The notes beneath the pieces are model-generated. The model was not told where the DNA came from. It ran no database searches and saw nothing but the letters and a program-made list of their open reading frames with translations. From the NCBI GenBank assembly GCA_947650875.1, contig CANSXE010000001.1, forward strand, positions 1 to 64,000: a stretch of DNA of 64,000 nt. Reading direction: 5' to 3'. The translations under genes and the position numbers were made by a program. Source of the DNA: an uncultured Bacillota bacterium (GTDB taxonomy: Bacteria; Bacillota; Clostridia; Oscillospirales; Oscillospiraceae). Below, piece after piece: positions 5,435 through 34,557 of the stretch (position 1 is the first letter of the stretch; every line of letters begins with the position of its first letter).

Positions 5435-6298
5435 ATGCGGGACAAGTGGATGGCCCCCGAGTGGCTGGCCTGCCCGGAGATTCCCCAGTACTCCATCGGC
5501 TGGCGGATGGGCTACGGCGAGGACTACGGCTGCCGGCTTTGGGCCTGGCTGCAAACCCTCAGCGACAAGGAGCGGGAGGAGTACGACCGCCTGTTTCCCA
5601 TGCCTGTCTTCTGGGACGACGTCTCCGTGATGGAGGACGACGAGGAGGGCGACCCCTCCCTGCTGTACGACGGGGAGGACTACTTCCTGCGCCACTGGCG
5701 GCCCAACGGCGAGCCGGCCTACGACCGGAAATGGCTGGAACGGCAGTATATCGCCGGAAAAAAGCTAAAATGGGTCCACTTCTGGGGCCACACCCCCGAG
5801 CCGGACGGCCGCATCATCGAGACCTGTCTCAGCCAGTGGTGGATGGCGGAGTTTCGGGTGGAGACCCAGCGCTACTGCTGCATGGAGCAGTTTATGATGG
5901 CGGAGAAGGCCCGGCTGTTCGGGGACGAGGAGACGCTGGAAAAGATTATGGAAGCCCGGTCTCAGGGGAAGATCAAGGCCCTGGGCCGAGAGGTGCGGAA
6001 CTTTGACCAGACCGAGTGGGACAAGTGTAAGCACACCATTGTTTTGACGGGGAATTTTCAAAAATTCCTGCAAAATCCCGAATTAAAGGACTTTTTGCTG
6101 CGCACCGGGGATAAAATTCTGGTGGAGGCCAGCCCCCGGGACCGCATCTGGGGCATCGGCATGGGCAAGGCCAACGAAAACGCAGAAAATCCCACCGCGT
6201 GGCGGGGGCGGAACCTGCTGGGCTTCGCCCTGATGGAGGTCCGGGACGAGCTGCGCCGGGTGTGCGCCAACGAGGACAGGATCGACCGAAATCTGTAG
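5435..6298 (+). CDS. NADAR (YbiA/DUF1768) family protein with ~100-aa N-terminal extension
   Basis: YCCMEQFMMAEKARLFGDEETLEKIM..., ILVEASPRDRIWGIGM, WRGRNLLGFALMEVRDEL are NADAR motifs. Confidence 0.8.
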   Translation: MRDKWMAPEWLACPEIPQYSIGWRMGYGEDYGCRLWAWLQTLSDKEREEYDRLFPMPVFWDDVSVMEDDEEGDPSLLYDGEDYFLRHWRPNGEPAYDRKWLERQYIAGKKLKWVHFWGHTPEPDGRIIETCLSQWWMAEFRVETQRYCCMEQFMMAEKARLFGDEETLEKIMEARSQGKIKALGREVRNFDQTEWDKCKHTIVLTGNFQKFLQNPELKDFLLRTGDKILVEASPRDRIWGIGMGKANENAENPTAWRGRNLLGFALMEVRDELRRVCANEDRIDRNL

Positions 6299-27460: not shown

Positions 27461-29113
27461 CTAAAAAATCAATCCATATTTTCGAATTCGGTATTGCAGG
27501 CTCTGGCGGAGGATGCCCAGGGTCTGGGCGGTGCGGGAGATGTTGTAGCCGCAGTGGTCCAGGGCCTGGGCGATGACCTGCTTCTCATAGCCGTCCATAA
27601 GCCCTTGCAGGGTTTCCAGGGAAAAGTCGATGGCCGGGAGGGGGGCAGCGGGCTCGCTGCGGTGTTTCAGCAGGTAGGGGGGCAGGTGGCGCACCTCCAT
27701 CACCTGGGAGTCGGTAACATTCTGGGCATAGTCCAGCACATGGAACAGCTCCCGCACGTTGCCCGGCCAGTGGTAGGCCCGCAGGACGGCGAGGACCTCC
27801 GGGTCAAGCCGGGTAACGGCGTGGACAAACTGGTAGGCGGTGGCCTCCAGGTGGTAGCGGATCAGCTCCTCCAGGTCCTCCAGGTGCTCCCGGAGTGGGG
27901 GGAGTTCAAGCATCACGGTGGACAGCCGATAGAACAGGTCGCGACGGAAGGTGTTTTCCGCCACCGCCTTGAAGGGGTCCTCGTTGCAGGAGGAGATCAC
28001 CCGCACATCCAGCCGAATATCCTGACTGCCCCCCACCCGGCGGAAGGTCTTTTCCTGGAGGACCCGCAGAATCTTGGACTGCATGGCCAGGCTCATGGAG
28101 TTGAGCTCGTCCAGGAACAGGGTGCCCCCGGCGGCCTCCTCCAGGTAGCCCGCCTTGTCCTCGCTGCCGGTGAAGCTGCCCTTTCTGGTGCCGAAGAGAA
28201 GGCTCTCGATGAGGGTCTCCGGGACGGCGGCGCAGTTGATGGCCAGAAACTTCCCGCTCCGGCGGCGGCTGGAGCGGTGGATGCTCTGGGCAAAGATCTC
28301 CTTGCCCGTTCCCGTCTCCCCCACCAGGAGGATGGGGCTGTCCTGAGGGGCCACCCGCCGGGCCAGCTCCACCGCCGAACGCAGTTTGGGACAGCTGCCG
28401 ATCACATTGTCGAAGGTGTAGCCCGAAAAGCTGATTTTTGGCGGCTTGTTCTGGAAGGAGCTGAGGGCTCGGCGGGTGTCCTCCAGCTTTTTGATGTTTT
28501 TCTCCACAAGCTCCGCCGTCTGCTCAAAGACCACCGCCCCCAGCAGCTCCCCCTCCCGGAAGATGGGGTAGGAGGTGTTGGCCGAAGCGATGGGGGCGGT
28601 GCTGAAGTCATTGGCCCGGAAGCTGTCCACCCGGTCGATCACCGGGGCCTGGGTCTGGAGGGCGGTCATGGTGGTGCTGATGGTCTCGTCCAGGTTGTAC
28701 AGGTCCAGCAGGTGCCGCCCCTCTACGCTCACCCCGCTGGGAATGCGGGAGATGCCCCGGCTGGCCCGGTTGAAGTAGACCGCGCAGGCGTTTTTGTCAT
28801 AAATCTGCACCCCGTCGGTGACCTGGTCCAGGGCCCGGGCCAGGAGATAGGGCCGGTTGTCCTCCCGCTTGAGCAGCAGCCAGCGCCCGCCCTCGGGGGC
28901 GGGGAGGAGCTGAAAATGAAAGGTGTTCTCCTCCCAGATCAGTTCCCCGCTGTCCCCCTCCCGGGGCAGGTCAAAGGCGTCCCGGGCCGGCCGCCGGGCG
29001 GCGGCCCAGCTCTCAAAGAGGTCCCGGTACAGGTCCTCCGCTTCCCGGCTGCCCCAGGCCACCCCACAGAAGCAGTCTGAGGGGTCCAGCGTAAACAGAA
29101 TGTCATAGAGCAT
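27461..29113 (-). CDS. Sigma-54-dependent transcriptional activator (PAS + AAA+ + Fis HTH)
   Basis: VGETGTGKEIFAQSIH, GSFTGSEDKAGYLEEAAGGTLFLDELNSM, RRDLFYRLSTVMLELPPLREH, YHWPGNVREL, C-terminal ISRTAQTLGILRQSLQYRIRKYGL; N-terminal PAS-like region. Confidence 0.93.
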   Translation of the reverse strand: MLYDILFTLDPSDCFCGVAWGSREAEDLYRDLFESWAAARRPARDAFDLPREGDSGELIWEENTFHFQLLPAPEGGRWLLLKREDNRPYLLARALDQVTDGVQIYDKNACAVYFNRASRGISRIPSGVSVEGRHLLDLYNLDETISTTMTALQTQAPVIDRVDSFRANDFSTAPIASANTSYPIFREGELLGAVVFEQTAELVEKNIKKLEDTRRALSSFQNKPPKISFSGYTFDNVIGSCPKLRSAVELARRVAPQDSPILLVGETGTGKEIFAQSIHRSSRRRSGKFLAINCAAVPETLIESLLFGTRKGSFTGSEDKAGYLEEAAGGTLFLDELNSMSLAMQSKILRVLQEKTFRRVGGSQDIRLDVRVISSCNEDPFKAVAENTFRRDLFYRLSTVMLELPPLREHLEDLEELIRYHLEATAYQFVHAVTRLDPEVLAVLRAYHWPGNVRELFHVLDYAQNVTDSQVMEVRHLPPYLLKHRSEPAAPLPAIDFSLETLQGLMDGYEKQVIAQALDHCGYNISRTAQTLGILRQSLQYRIRKYGLIF

Positions 29114-29157
29114 GGAAAGCTTCCCCTTTCGCTGTTGTTTCGCCCGCCGGGCGGGAC

Positions 29158-29237
29158 GGACGCATCGTGATGCGTCCCTACAGAGTGCTCAAAACCTCCG
29201 CAGCAGAAGACCCGTAGGGACGCTTCATGAAGCGTCC
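29158..29237. repeat. Pair of REP-like palindromes in inverted orientation
   Basis: GGACGCATCGTGATGCGTCCCTAC (29158-29181) and GTAGGGACGCTTCATGAAGCGTCC (29214-29237). Confidence 0.75.
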
Positions 29238-29307
29238 GCATTAACAAGGCTGATTTCCAAGGCGTCCCTGCCAGTGTACCGGAATCCCGGGCCGCTGTCA
29301 ATCCATA

Positions 29308-29343
29308 TGCAATAAAAATTTGCAGATCGCAAAATTATTTTGC
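29308..29343. promoter_or_regulatory. Overlapping inverted repeats, candidate enhancer (UAS) for the sigma-54 activator
   Basis: TGCAAtaaaaaTTTGCagatcGCAAAAttaTTTTGC: four alternating GCAAA/TTTGC half-sites ~150-190 bp upstream of the -24/-12 element. Confidence 0.5.
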
Positions 29344-29493
29344 TTCTGCGCCGCTAAAATCATGCCCATCTCCCCAAATGTCCCCGAAGCCCCAAGGCAC
29401 TTCCCGGTTGTTTTGCATAAATCAGACGCATTAGACGCATTATATTCGTGCAGGTGACACAAAGTTTCGGGAATTTTCTTCGATTTCCTCTCT

Positions 29494-29510
29494 TTGGCCC
29501 GGCAGTTGCT
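29494..29510 (+). promoter_or_regulatory. Sigma-54 (-24/-12) promoter
   Basis: TTGGCCCGGCAGTTGCT: GG at 29496-7, GC at 29508-9, exact N10 spacing; close to the TTGGCACG-N4-TTGCT consensus. Confidence 0.85.
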
Positions 29511-29575
29511 TTATAAAAAGACAGACTGTAAAGAAAGGAGAGTATGCGGCCCTTTCGCCGCATACGGAGAGAAAC

Positions 29576-31153
29576 ATGAAACATGAGAACAAGCCGATCC
29601 GCTGGGATGTATTCATCCCCTGCTTTGTGGTCATCGGCGGCGCGGCCCTGCTGGGCATCGTCAACAACAGCTGGCTGACCAGCGTGACCTACACCATGTT
29701 CGACTGGTCGCTGAGCACCTTTGGCTGGCTGTACCAGATCGTGGCCATGGTCACCCTGCTGCTGGCCGCCCTGCTGCTGTTCACCAAGGTGGGCAAGATT
29801 CGCTTCGGCGGCCCGGAGGCCAAGGCCAAGCACTCCTTTGGCTCCTGGTTCGCCATGACCCTCACCGGCGGCATCGCCACCGGCCTGATTACCTACGGCG
29901 TCAATGAGGTGCTCATCTACTACGGCAACATCTACGGCGAGCTGGACGGCTACGGCATCACCCCTCTGACCCAGGAGGCGGAGCTGTTCGCCATGGGCCG
30001 CTGCTTCTATAACTGGACCTTCATCCCCTACGCCATGTACGCCCTGTCCGGCGTGCTCATCGCCTATATGTATTTCAACCGCAAAAAACAACTCTCTGTA
30101 GCGGCCTCCCTCACCCCCATCTTTGGGGAGAAGGTGACCCAGGGCATCTGGGTGGTGCTGGTGGACGTGCTGTCCGTACTGGCCATCGCCCTGGGCCTGG
30201 CCTCCTCTCTGGGCGCCGGTCTGGCCCTCATCGGCTCCGGTCTCTACTCCGCCTACGGCGTGGAGCAGGGCCCCATCGTGTGGATGGCCCTCACCGCCAT
30301 TATCACTATCACCTTTACCATCGCCTCGGTCACCGGCATCGACAAGGGCATCAAGTGGCTGGCCGGCCTGACCTCCAAAATCTTCTATGTGCTGCTTATC
30401 CTGCTGTTTGTAATCGGTCCCACCATCTACATCCTGAATATGGCCAATGTGGGCTTGGGCTACTGGCTGGACCGGTTCTGGATGTGGGGCTTCGACCCCT
30501 ACACCGTGGGCGGCTCCGCCCTGGTCACCTGGTGGACCATGTATGACTGGGCCATCTGGATCGCCTACGCCCCCCTGATGGGCATTTTCTTCGCCATCAT
30601 CGCCTACGGCCGCACCGTGCGCCAGTTCCTCATCGTCAACTGGATTCTGCCCGCCTCCTTCGGCTTTGTGTGGTTCTCCGTGTGGGGCTCCACCGCCCTG
30701 GAGTGGCAAAAGAGCGGCAGCGCCGACATCATCTCCGCCATTCAGGCGGGCGGAGCCACCACCGGCCTGTGGGAGTTCCTCAAGAACGTCCCCCTGGGCA
30801 TGATTATCATTCCCGTGATTATCCTGGCCCTGATTGCCGCCTTCTCCACCACGGCGGACACCATGTCCACCACCATCGCCGCCCTGTGCACCAGCGGAGC
30901 CCGCCACGACGAGGAGCCCGCCATCTGGCAGAAAATCGTCTGGGGCGTGTCCATCGGCGTGATCGCCTGCGTCATGGTGGCCTTTGGCGGCGGCGCCCAG
31001 GGCGTGGACGGCGTGAAGTACCTGGCGGCCTGCGGCGGCTTTGTGGTGCTGGTGGTGTTCATCTTCCAGGTGGCGGCCGCCTTCAAGGTGTTCTTCTTCG
31101 ATCCCGAGACCAAGAAGGATATTGTGGACAGTGTGGACCAGATTGAAGCATAA
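29576..31153 (+). CDS. BCCT-family (betaine/carnitine/choline-type) transporter
   Basis: GGIATGLITYGVNEVLIYYG, TWWTMYDWAIWIAYAPLMGIFFAIIAYGRTVRQF, about 12 TM helices. Confidence 0.88.
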   Translation: MKHENKPIRWDVFIPCFVVIGGAALLGIVNNSWLTSVTYTMFDWSLSTFGWLYQIVAMVTLLLAALLLFTKVGKIRFGGPEAKAKHSFGSWFAMTLTGGIATGLITYGVNEVLIYYGNIYGELDGYGITPLTQEAELFAMGRCFYNWTFIPYAMYALSGVLIAYMYFNRKKQLSVAASLTPIFGEKVTQGIWVVLVDVLSVLAIALGLASSLGAGLALIGSGLYSAYGVEQGPIVWMALTAIITITFTIASVTGIDKGIKWLAGLTSKIFYVLLILLFVIGPTIYILNMANVGLGYWLDRFWMWGFDPYTVGGSALVTWWTMYDWAIWIAYAPLMGIFFAIIAYGRTVRQFLIVNWILPASFGFVWFSVWGSTALEWQKSGSADIISAIQAGGATTGLWEFLKNVPLGMIIIPVIILALIAAFSTTADTMSTTIAALCTSGARHDEEPAIWQKIVWGVSIGVIACVMVAFGGGAQGVDGVKYLAACGGFVVLVVFIFQVAAAFKVFFFDPETKKDIVDSVDQIEA

Positions 31154-31168: not shown

Positions 31169-32701
31169 ATGGAAGAGATGAAAACGCTTGTACTGGGCGA
31201 GCCCATCACCCTGGAGGACTTCGTCTCCGTGGCCCGGTTCGGGCGGAAGGTGGCATTTTCCCCGGAATACATAGCCCGTGTAAACCGCTCCCGGGCCCTG
31301 GTGGAGCAGTGGGTGGAGGAGGAGCGGGTGATGTACGGCGTCACCACCGGCTTCGGGGCGCTGTGTACCAAGGCCATCGACAAGGAGGCCACCGCCCAGC
31401 TTCAGGAGAACATCATCCTGTCCCACTCCGTCTCGGTGGGCGAGCCCCTGAGCGTGGAGCGGGTGCGGGGCATTATGCTCATGGTGCTGCAAAACATCGG
31501 CCAGGGCTACAGCGGCGTGCGGATGTGTGTGCTGGAAAAGTACCGGGACTTCCTCAACGCCGGCCTGACCCCCTACGCCCCCGGGGACGGCAGCGTGGGC
31601 TACCTCTCCCCCGAGGCCCACATGGCCCTGGTGCTGCTGGGCCGCGGTAAGGCCTACTACCAGGGTGAGCTGCTGGAAGGCGGGGAAGCCCTGAAACGGG
31701 CCGGGCTGGAGCCCATGGTTCTCTCCTCCAAGGAGGGGCTGGCCCTGGTGTCGGGCACCACCTCCGCCACCGCCATGGCCGCCCTGGCCCTCTATGACAT
31801 GCTCAACGCCGCCAAGTCCGCCGACATCGTGGGGGCCATGTCTCTGGAGGCCATGAAGGGGGTCATCAACGCCTTCGACCCCCGGGTGATGGCTGTCCGG
31901 CCCCACCCCGACCAGCTCAACGCCTCGGAGAATGTCCGCCGGATACTGAAGGGCTCGGGCATCATGGAGAAATACCGGGGCAGCCGGGTGCAGGACGCCC
32001 TGTCCCTGCGGTGCATCCCCCAGCTCCACGGCGCGGCCCGGAAGACCCTGGAGGACGCGAAAAAGACCATCGAGATCGAGATGAACTCCTGCTGTGACAA
32101 CCCCATTATCTGGCCCGAGACGGGCAACGAGGACGTGATTTCCGCCTGCAACGCCGATTCCGCCTATGTGGGCATGGAGATGGACAGCGCCTGTATCGCC
32201 GCCGTGGGGCTGGCCAAGATGTCCGAGCGGCGGAACAACCGCATCGTGGACGGCTCCCTGTCGGGCTACCCCTACTTCTGCATCAAAAACCCGGGGCTGA
32301 ACTCCGGGCTGATGATCCCCCAGTACGTCCAGGCCGGTCTCCTCAACGAGATGCGGATGCTGGCCACCCCCTCCACCATCGACAACACCCCCACCTGCGG
32401 CAACCAGGAGGACTATGTGGCCATGGGGTACAACGCCTGCAAGAAGGCAGGCCCCATGGCGGAGAAGCTGGAGTACATGCTGGCCATCGAGCTGCTCAGC
32501 GTGTATGAGGTGCAGCAGTTTGTGGACCCGGACGTGGCCCGCGCCCCTGCCACAGCGGCGGTGCTGGCCGAGATTGGCAGGACGGTGCCGGTGATGGAGA
32601 AGGACATGTTCCTCCACCCCTACATCGAGTATTTGAAGGACTTTATCCACTCGGGCGGACTGATCCGGGTGGCCGAACAGGTGACAGGAGCGCTGAGCTG
32701 A
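31169..32701 (+). CDS. HAL/PAL-family aromatic amino acid lyase homologue lacking the MIO Ala-Ser-Gly motif; candidate ergothionase/betaine lyase
   Basis: MYGVTTGFGALC, GSVGYLSPEAHMALVLLGRGKAYY (canonical GSVGASGDLAP... shortened by 3 aa), DALSLRCIPQLHGA, TPTCGNQEDYVAMG. Confidence 0.8.
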   Translation: MEEMKTLVLGEPITLEDFVSVARFGRKVAFSPEYIARVNRSRALVEQWVEEERVMYGVTTGFGALCTKAIDKEATAQLQENIILSHSVSVGEPLSVERVRGIMLMVLQNIGQGYSGVRMCVLEKYRDFLNAGLTPYAPGDGSVGYLSPEAHMALVLLGRGKAYYQGELLEGGEALKRAGLEPMVLSSKEGLALVSGTTSATAMAALALYDMLNAAKSADIVGAMSLEAMKGVINAFDPRVMAVRPHPDQLNASENVRRILKGSGIMEKYRGSRVQDALSLRCIPQLHGAARKTLEDAKKTIEIEMNSCCDNPIIWPETGNEDVISACNADSAYVGMEMDSACIAAVGLAKMSERRNNRIVDGSLSGYPYFCIKNPGLNSGLMIPQYVQAGLLNEMRMLATPSTIDNTPTCGNQEDYVAMGYNACKKAGPMAEKLEYMLAIELLSVYEVQQFVDPDVARAPATAAVLAEIGRTVPVMEKDMFLHPYIEYLKDFIHSGGLIRVAEQVTGALS

Positions 32702-32702
32702 T

Positions 32703-32969
32703 ATGAAAAAAGAAGTTGTCCGCGTGGAGATGGACCTGAAAAAGATTTTCCTCACCCCTCCCAACACCCGCCGGGAGCAGATCACCCTGCTGGTGATGAT
32801 GGTGGTCCTCTTTATCATGTTCTTCGGCCCCATCTGCTTCACCGAAATCCATCCGGTGAAGGCCATCCTCCTCTCCTGCCTGCCCGCCCTGTCGGTCTCC
32901 TGGGGGTGGATCGTTCTGCTGCGGTCTCTGTTCCGCAAATCGGAGTTCTGCCAGCAGGTAAAAGATTGA
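32703..32969 (+). CDS. Small (88 aa) two-TM membrane protein
   Basis: Starts 1 bp after the lyase stop; ITLLVMMVVLFIMFFGPICF and ILLSCLPALSVSWGWIVLL hydrophobic segments. Confidence 0.6.
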   Translation: MKKEVVRVEMDLKKIFLTPPNTRREQITLLVMMVVLFIMFFGPICFTEIHPVKAILLSCLPALSVSWGWIVLLRSLFRKSEFCQQVKD

Positions 32970-33019: not shown

Positions 33020-33061
33020 TAAAAGCCGTCGTTTTCGTCTGGAAACGGCGGCTTTTGTTTT
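33020..33061 (+). terminator. Rho-independent terminator closing the BCCT-lyase operon
   Basis: AAAAGCCGTCGTTTTC-gtctg-GAAACGGCGGCTTTTGTTTTG. Confidence 0.8.
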
Positions 33062-33459: not shown

Positions 33460-34557
33460 TTGTCAATTAAAACACTTTCTATCAAAGGCACCGACAGCCG
33501 GGATGTGGCCCGGCAGGCGCGGGAAGCCTTGGCGGATTTTCAGACAAAGCTGATGCTGTTTTTTGCATCCAGCGATTATGAAAATCCGGAGGCGGCCTTG
33601 GCGGAGACGTTCCCTGACGCTGAAATCATTGGCTCATCCGCGCACAGCGAATACTGCAATGCCGGTTATACAAGTGGTTCGGTCAGCATCATGGCGATGG
33701 ATGCCGGCAGTGTGGAGGATGTGTGCGTACAGGTCGTGGAAAATATCGGTGCGGAGCTGGAGCTGCGGGACGTTCTGAACGGAATGCACGCCCACTTCGG
33801 CGGTGCAGACGAAATTCTTGCGAATTTTGAACGTTATGTCGGCATTGTCCTCTTCGAGTCCAGCGCAAAGGCAGAGGAAATCTTCATGGACCGCCTGGGC
33901 ACCGCTACCGACCTTCTCTTTGTGGGCGGCTCCTCCTCCGCGGCGGACGGCGGCAAGTCTCTGGTCTATGCAAACGGCAGGAGCTACACCGGCGCGGCGG
34001 TACTGGCCATCCTGAAGACAACCAACGGCTACGACGTATTGAAGACCCAAAGCGCCCATATCTTCTCGGAGCGCAAGCTGGCAGTGACAAAATCCGACCT
34101 GCACAACCGCATCCTCTATGAATTTGACCACCGTCCCTGCGGCGAAGTATACGCGGAGGTGCTGGGAGTCGGACAGGATGAGATTCAGAATTACTTTGTG
34201 TGCAACCCTCTGGGGGTTGTGGCCGGAGACGAGATTTTTGTGCGCACCTTTAACCAGATTCAGGACGGCGGTATTACCCTGCACTGCGGTTTGCCGGAGG
34301 GAACGGAGATCAACGTTCTGAAAATTGGCGACATTGTGGACGACACCCGTAAGGCCCTGGACGAAGCAATCTCCTATGAGCCCGCCGGCGTGATTAACTT
34401 CAACTGCCTGTATCGGACGCTGGAGATTTTGAACAAAGACCAGGTAGAGCCCTATTGCGCGCTGTTTGGCCGGTACCCCAGCATCGGATTTTCCACCAAC
34501 GGCGAGGCGTTTTTTGGACACATCAACGAGACATCCACAGTTTTGGTGATTAAGTAA
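33460..34557 (+). CDS. FIST-domain protein
   Basis: FFASSDYENPEAALAETFPDAEIIGSSAHSEYC, LLFVGGSSSAADGG, GFSTNGEAFFGHINETSTVLVI; TTG start. Confidence 0.8.
   Translation: MSIKTLSIKGTDSRDVARQAREALADFQTKLMLFFASSDYENPEAALAETFPDAEIIGSSAHSEYCNAGYTSGSVSIMAMDAGSVEDVCVQVVENIGAELELRDVLNGMHAHFGGADEILANFERYVGIVLFESSAKAEEIFMDRLGTATDLLFVGGSSSAADGGKSLVYANGRSYTGAAVLAILKTTNGYDVLKTQSAHIFSERKLAVTKSDLHNRILYEFDHRPCGEVYAEVLGVGQDEIQNYFVCNPLGVVAGDEIFVRTFNQIQDGGITLHCGLPEGTEINVLKIGDIVDDTRKALDEAISYEPAGVINFNCLYRTLEILNKDQVEPYCALFGRYPSIGFSTNGEAFFGHINETSTVLVIK

Follow-up and report, generated by a model that had tools for sequence, protein, structure and literature searches.

A predicted sigma-54 switch in front of a BCCT transporter and a MIO-less member of the histidine ammonia-lyase family in an Oscillospiraceae bacterium

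AAA+ activators drive the sigma-54 polymerase at -24/-12 promoters, and the MIO cofactor of histidine ammonia-lyase (HAL, HutH) forms from an Ala-Ser-Gly triad. Sigma-54 promoters are known, as are activators with PAS domains and importers of the BCCT type, and one lyase without MIO, ergothionase, has been described before. The regulators closest to the one described here are the PrdR-like PAS-AAA+-Fis sigma-54 systems. They resemble the locus in the window (the whole stretch of 64,000 nucleotides analysed here) in their -24/-12 element, upstream palindromes, Walker A motif and G-x-F-T-G-x loop, but they have other target genes, and the loop of the window activator reads GSFTGS instead of GAFTGA. 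PrdR is the activator's best NCBIfam match, at 345 bits against a cut-off of 795, and no named equivalog is reached.

Three known protein groups bear on the structural genes. The ergothionase of Treponema denticola (PDB 6s7j) is HAL-like and, like the window lyase, lacks MIO, as given in PMC13405746; it also has changes of the N195-to-S and Y280-to-L type, and the ergothionase of a congeneric genome (G007, locus L057) has a BCCT neighbour, as the window lyase does. It differs in reading GSIGE-GDI where the window clade has GSVGY---L and in belonging to a separate clade, and the window lyase scores better against HALs. HutH, which matches PF00221 throughout, is about 40% identical (genus HutH) to the window lyase and likely shares its product, urocanate; unlike HutH, the window lyase has no Ala-Ser-Gly, stays below the hutH cut-offs and travels with a BCCT gene. 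Finally, BetP, DddT and the trimethylamine transporter 8zw8 match PF02028 over their full length, as does the window BCCT (360 bits, residues 12-504), which lies under the cut-off of every named NCBIfam substrate group (300 bits against 650 for betaine_BCCT). The features of the locus are these:

27461 to 29113, minus strand: sigma-54 activator, 550 aa (Pfam, motifs, AlphaFold2 model)
29273 to 29301, minus strand: the activator's sigma-70-like promoter, TTGACA-17-TACACT, 10/12 (TGTCAA block in most of the genus alignment)
29308 to 29324, no strand: palindrome 1, TGCAATAAAAATTTGCA, predicted activator site (conservation)
29328 to 29344, no strand: palindrome 2, CGCAAAATTATTTTGCT, predicted activator site (conservation)
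29494 to 29510, plus strand: predicted -24/-12 (sigma-54) promoter, TTGGCCCGGCAGTTGCT (spacing, conservation, activator co-occurrence, window scoring)
29542 to 29565, plus strand: leader hairpin, GTATGCGGC..GCCGCATAC (in 8 aligned genus leaders)
29576 to 31153, plus strand: BCCT-family transporter, 525 aa, predicted betaine importer (PF02028)
31169 to 32701, plus strand: aromatic-amino-acid-lyase-fold enzyme, 510 aa, predicted trimethylamine lyase (PF00221, alignments, tree)
32703 to 32969, plus strand: small hydrophobic protein, 88 aa (orthologues adjoin the lyase)
about 33020 to 33057, plus strand: intrinsic terminator (-24.1 kcal/mol, z -6.1)

A sequence-only reading of this DNA had described the promoter site, the divergent activator and a strong terminator at 33020-33061, which is found at nearly those coordinates; the third gene at 32703-32969, the palindromes, the activator's sigma-70-like promoter, the leader hairpin and the loss of MIO go beyond it. 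It had also called the locus a closed, inducible catabolic unit. The anatomy fits that description, and for its inducer and activity we propose the following.

Building on the site, palindromes, activator motifs, MIO loss, clade and neighbours seen in the sequence, we read the locus, with some confidence in the reading as a whole, as a substrate-inducible sigma-54 operon for the import of hercynine and the elimination of trimethylamine from it to give urocanate. The activator would be made from its own sigma-70-like promoter, would bind the twin palindromes at 29308-29344, as their conservation suggests, and may sense the substrate through its PAS region. Its AAA+ ring would act on sigma-54 polymerase waiting at 29494-29510, and a transcript expected to start at about 29520-29521, some 12 nt past the GC, and to end at about 33057 would carry the BCCT importer, the lyase and the small membrane protein. 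The importer's substrate would be an amino acid bearing a trimethylammonium group, with hercynine (N,N,N-trimethylhistidine, histidine betaine) the most likely one, and the lyase would beta-eliminate trimethylamine to leave urocanate, with the conserved Y145, at the MIO position, having a presumed catalytic role. On chemical reasoning, such an enzyme could do without MIO, since trimethylamine leaves readily as it is and ammonia does not; ergothionase, itself MIO-less, supports this.

The window lyase matches PF00221 over its whole length (544 bits), which places it at superfamily level. The HAL stretch GSVGASGDLAPLAH is replaced by GSVGY---LSPEAH (141-151), so the Ala-Ser-Gly triad is deleted, and in the PDB alignment the MIO residue has Y145 as its counterpart. 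GSVGY is invariant in 11 of the 11 rows of alignment A1, and none of the 43 rows in the GSVGY clade, the branch of which has an SH-aLRT of 100, contains Ala-Ser-Gly. In a quick tree with a midpoint root, these 43 rows and seven ergothionase-type rows fall into separate groups, each with an SH-aLRT of 100, with the caution that the ergothionase rows attach to a long branch; 22 rows keep MIO. Judging by record titles, members of the GSVGY clade come from Bacillota, Pseudomonadota, Thermodesulfobacteriota, Myxococcota and Synergistota. Alignment and tree thus put the window lyase in a MIO-less lineage distinct from ergothionase: it is without the ergothionase signature GE-(G/A)DI at the MIO site and falls outside the 6s7j clade. 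A structure model of the lyase was poor (pLDDT 54) and was set aside.

The neighbours of such lyases were compared across 80 loci, 32 of them MIO-less, 46 MIO-bearing and two unclassified fragments (L091, L097). A BCCT gene lies near 15 of the 32 MIO-less loci and none of the 46 MIO-bearing ones, and the activator near 13 and one, respectively. Only seven of the 32 have a hut or formiminoglutamate gene nearby, and a few of these genes could be part of ordinary hut operons. The order BCCT-lyase-HutU-HutI-HutG is unbroken in Halobacillus (L093); Bacillus (L086) has one gene between BCCT-lyase and HutU-HutI-HutG, and in Brevibacillus and Acinetobacter the MIO-less lyase occurs with HutU/I/G. For the HutU proteins of L086, L089, L093 and L096, the urocanate hydratase family gives 985-1020 bits (cut-off 375) and the two families of thiourocanate hydratase give 688-736 (cut-offs 880 and 930); HutG is over its cut-off in L089 only. 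It tells against the hercynine reading that the window locus has no hut genes and that urocanase was not found in the window's own assembly (G000, 77.3% complete), though it is present in five of the five genus lyase carriers that are at least 90% complete. It is the combination of MIO-less lyase, betaine-type importer and urocanate hydratase that leads us to a hercynine trimethylamine-lyase. We regard a trimethylammonium substrate as probable, and lean, by a modest degree, towards hercynine as its identity. Since hercynine is a main metabolite of ergothioneine in people, according to PMC7653990, a supply of it in the gut is plausible.

The alternative that survives best keeps the same switch and makes the lyase a second type of ergothionase, converting ergothioneine to trimethylamine and thiourocanate. 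A BCCT transporter suits a betaine, ergothioneine-degrading gut bacteria are reported in PMC13405746, and 6s7j is also MIO-less with the same N-to-S and Y-to-L changes, which correspond to S195 and L278 of the window lyase and are not diagnostic, as several clade members keep N195. We nevertheless find this unlikely. The clade stands apart with full support, its deletion differs (GY--- versus GE-), and the window lyase scores closest to HALs, ahead of 6s7j. Within the genus, G007 has a clear ergothionase orthologue (L057; 6s7j E 3e-197) that is accompanied by a BCCT gene, ergothionase-type genes adjoin clade members in L072 and L077, and the neighbouring hydratases score as urocanate hydratase.

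We would give rather less weight to the possibility that the lyase acts on another aromatic betaine (of tryptophan, tyrosine or phenylalanine) or on an oxidised ergothioneine derivative. The Hut neighbours indicate an imidazole product, and H86 and E414, at the HAL positions for imidazole binding, are invariant in alignment A1. What speaks for it is the diversity around the enzyme: there are MttB-like neighbours, several paralogous MIO-less branches that differ in their transporter (BCCT or SSS-like), and clusters holding two or three lyases (L070, L071, L072, L085, L095), so that substrates probably differ among them.

Some of these other loci deserve mention on their own account. In L051, L052 and L060, paralogous MIO-less lyases that are 42-44% identical stand beside a related activator (in L060 from ORF reading), with an SSS-type symporter, labelled from its sequence, in L051 and L052; this is probably a sister system with a different substrate. 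The ergothionase-type lyases of L056 and L057 adjoin molybdenum-hydroxylase-like (XDH) genes, and L057 also has a BCCT-like gene; these are likely ergothioneine breakdown clusters within the same genus. In L088 and L098, the MIO-less lyase is followed by an MttB-like methyltransferase (trimeth_pyl at about 300 bits, cut-off 525), a hint that freed trimethylamine or a betaine is demethylated.

The switch proposed for the hercynine operon starts from the promoter site. The earlier claim of a near-consensus -24/-12 element with exact GG-N10-GC spacing holds: TTGGCCCGGCAGTTGCT occupies 29494-29510 on the plus strand, with GG at 29496-29497, GC at 29508-29509 and 10 bases between, and it has a single mismatch, A to C, to the sigma-54 consensus TGGCAC-N5-TTGC. 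It ends 65 nt upstream of the BCCT ATG at 29576, where about 66 bp had been given. It is worth pointing out that the letters of the match by themselves are little proof, being within chance: TGGCNCNNNNNTTGCW occurs once in the 64-kb window versus 0.40 expected and at least once in 34 of 100 shuffles, and genome-wide, with up to one mismatch allowed, its 66 sites are not above the 63 of the reversed pattern. The site is taken as real because of its placement and conservation. A score as high is reached in a fraction of 0.007 of 400 random windows of equal length. TTGGC-N7-TTGCT is retained in nine of 10 aligned orthologous intergenic regions (genus, Lawsonibacter group); the tenth, G049, lacks the BCCT gene at that place and has only a degenerate site of 5.2 bits, while G019 keeps the site before a different BCCT (32% identical). 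A search for a sigma-70-like site on the plus strand of the 462-base activator-BCCT intergenic region found none.

The activator described as divergent and upstream is indeed there. It has the PF00158 sigma-54 interaction domain (210 bits), an AAA+ lid and a Fis-type HTH by Pfam, with PAS-like regions at about 1-80 and 82-200, the AAA+ domain at 238-402 and the HTH at 510-546; its Walker A reads GETGTGKE, and no receiver domain was found in it. An AlphaFold2 model of residues 1-234 (pLDDT 87.9) finds PAS domains as its best PDB matches (Z 12-15). For residues 82-200, PAS chains come first (Z 15.0, rmsd 1.9, 107 aligned), and the first PAS-like half is assigned only from rows with tandem PAS domains (MmoS and DosP among them), which cover 1-200. 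From the model, the protein looks like a one-component sensor-activator. Upstream of the -24 element by about 160-180 bp lie two palindromes of 17 bp each, 20 bp apart, and their consensus, YGCAAAA-N3-TTTTGCR, is found as a regular expression in 15 of 19 upstream regions versus 0.01-0.17 expected in each. The misses are L070, L071, L082 and L098, of which L098 holds the near copy TGCCAAAAATTTTGCA. These palindromes are likely the activator's binding site; as they abut its own sigma-70-like promoter, lying directly upstream of it, autoregulation is possible.

Site and activator occur together across lyase loci. The scan covered 420 nt ending just past the first gene's start, at the window locus and 22 of the 32 MIO-less loci. 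With a threshold of 11 bits, chosen after the scores were known, 12 of 14 loci with the activator reach at least that score, with the site 64-129 nt before the start and the loci spanning several phyla, as against none of nine without it (Fisher 7e-5; with close relatives merged, 8/10 versus 0/7, 0.002); L068 is apparently the G003 contig, so genus rows of the alignment and the scan overlap. None of the other 10 MIO-less loci has the activator: L079, L080, L090 and L099 are without DNA upstream of the first gene, and in the remaining six the main lyase or first gene scores at most 10.1 bits (L072, overlapping the start codon). L072 also has an 11.6-bit match before its second lyase, within coding DNA. 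In L098, a miss of the scan, TGGCACAAGCCTTGCT is present 565 nt before position 6001, outside the scanned stretch.

The other of the two misses, [Clostridium] aminophilum (L078, 4181-6010), shows a different arrangement. Here the Walker A of the activator homologue has become GEEGTETE, the GAFTGA loop is gone, and a search of the genome for rpoN found none. In place of the -24/-12 element there is a sigma-70-like promoter, TTGACA-17-TATATT; two palindromes are kept, one of them between this promoter and the gene. The switch would seem to have been released from sigma-54, with the activator perhaps now a repressor. With rpoN, the motor of the activator and the -24/-12 site all gone together, the species offers a usable example of the rewiring of a sigma-54 switch.

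Against this evidence, it is improbable that the window's -24/-12 match is a chance or relic sequence and that the genes are read from another promoter. The 0.4 matches expected per 64 kb and the failure to find rpoN in the 77.3%-complete assembly would agree with that; conservation and activator co-occurrence, which rule out chance alone, the want of a sigma-70-like plus-strand site between the genes, and the loss pattern in L078 argue the other way. We thus hold with high confidence that a sigma-54 promoter precedes the BCCT-lyase genes under the divergent activator, as the sequence-only reading had it.

That reading had also proposed looking in the genome for rpoN and for similar sites, with a divided outcome: rpoN is not found in G000, which formally goes against that reading, while near-consensus sites do stand beside activators. 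Neither two Pfam domains nor a genus rpoN protein as query, the latter in a search without a positive control, found rpoN there. It is present in nine of the 11 genus genomes carrying the lyase, and the exceptions, G000 and G024, are 77% and 75% complete. In G007, G014, L067 and L070, rpoN comes next after the activator in the same orientation, and in G049 and G019 it is just past the lyase. The rpoN segment of G048, a near relative, is largely missing from G000, together with ATP synthase genes; placing rpoN by synteny was tried and settles nothing, as contig 27 of G000 carries different sequence where the similarity ends. Three strong sigma-54 activators are present in G000, as are four exact matches to TTGGCNCNNNNNTTGCW, three of which are at or within about 10 kb of a sigma-54 activator. 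One site is 43 nt before a pxpA-like gene, beside a response-regulator activator with GAFTGA, and another precedes a thiolase-like gene, the activator on that contig having GSFTGA (both gene names read from translations). Since genus carriers hold rpoN, G000 is incomplete and activators with sites are present, the window species very probably has sigma-54. In the genome of L071, a MAG, no rpoN was found despite a near-perfect site.

Between the promoter and the transporter, the leader hairpin comes after a strong AAAGGAG (29534) and ahead of the BCCT start codon, has an internal ATG and could influence translation. RNAalifold gives eight pairs for the eight genus leaders, none of them changed on both sides, so that the pairing is putative. 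In most of these leaders the hairpin ATG opens, by eye, a short frame overlapping the BCCT start. A short leader peptide was considered and dropped because the frame is inconsistent, stopping after three codons in G003 and running in frame with BCCT in G007; only the hairpin is retained. At the other end of the operon, the 88-residue protein has no family match in Pfam or NCBIfam; it accompanies the BCCT-lyase pair, its gene coming after that of the lyase in several genera, and is a possible BCCT partner.

The MIO-less lyases are easily given the wrong name. An orthologue in L072 (2368-3891) lies above the NCBIfam PRK09367 cut-off (538.9 versus 524) and would therefore be misnamed by automatic annotation. 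That the window holds nothing more than a HutH operon whose BCCT protein imports histidine would be in keeping with PF00221, with hutH as the best named NCBIfam family and with that L072 score, but it is highly improbable and was rejected on the deleted MIO-forming triad, the window protein being below both hutH cut-offs as well (498.4 versus 539.15; 518.1 versus 524 for PRK09367) and MIO-bearing HutH occurring elsewhere in seven of the seven carrier genomes checked, so that MIO-less lyases are not mere replacements of HutH.

Gut bacterial trimethylamine becomes TMAO. If the hercynine reading is true, the gut pools of urocanate and trimethylamine have an unlisted source. A wider proposal, which we put forward tentatively and only as a whole, is that there is a widespread cofactor-free trimethylamine lyase family, arisen in the HAL family independently of ergothionase through deletion of the MIO triad and gain of a tyrosine; that its window member converts hercynine to urocanate and trimethylamine, a gut trimethylamine source going by the name of histidine ammonia-lyase; and that where rpoN was lost, as in [Clostridium] aminophilum, the activator was decoupled from sigma-54, perhaps as a repressor. 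In PMC13405746, a similarity search for ergothionase gave only ammonia-lyases, and the activity was concluded not to be widespread; as the MIO-less clade scores as histidine ammonia-lyase, surveys by ergothionase similarity would overlook it. Within an open-access library, we found neither a hercynine lyase or sigma-54-controlled betaine lyase nor the GSVGY clade and the [Clostridium] aminophilum rewiring, and the novelty of the clade, its sigma-54 control and the rewiring is provisional to that extent.

Two minor observations concern the flanks. The activator leader contains an inverted-repeat element (GTAGGGACGC..., 29157-29238) that is shared with G048 and absent from the other aligned genus regions; GTAGGGACGC has five copies in the window versus 0.09 expected. 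Just past the terminator, on the same strand, 33460-34557 encodes a FIST-domain protein that is NosP-like, under the cut-off.
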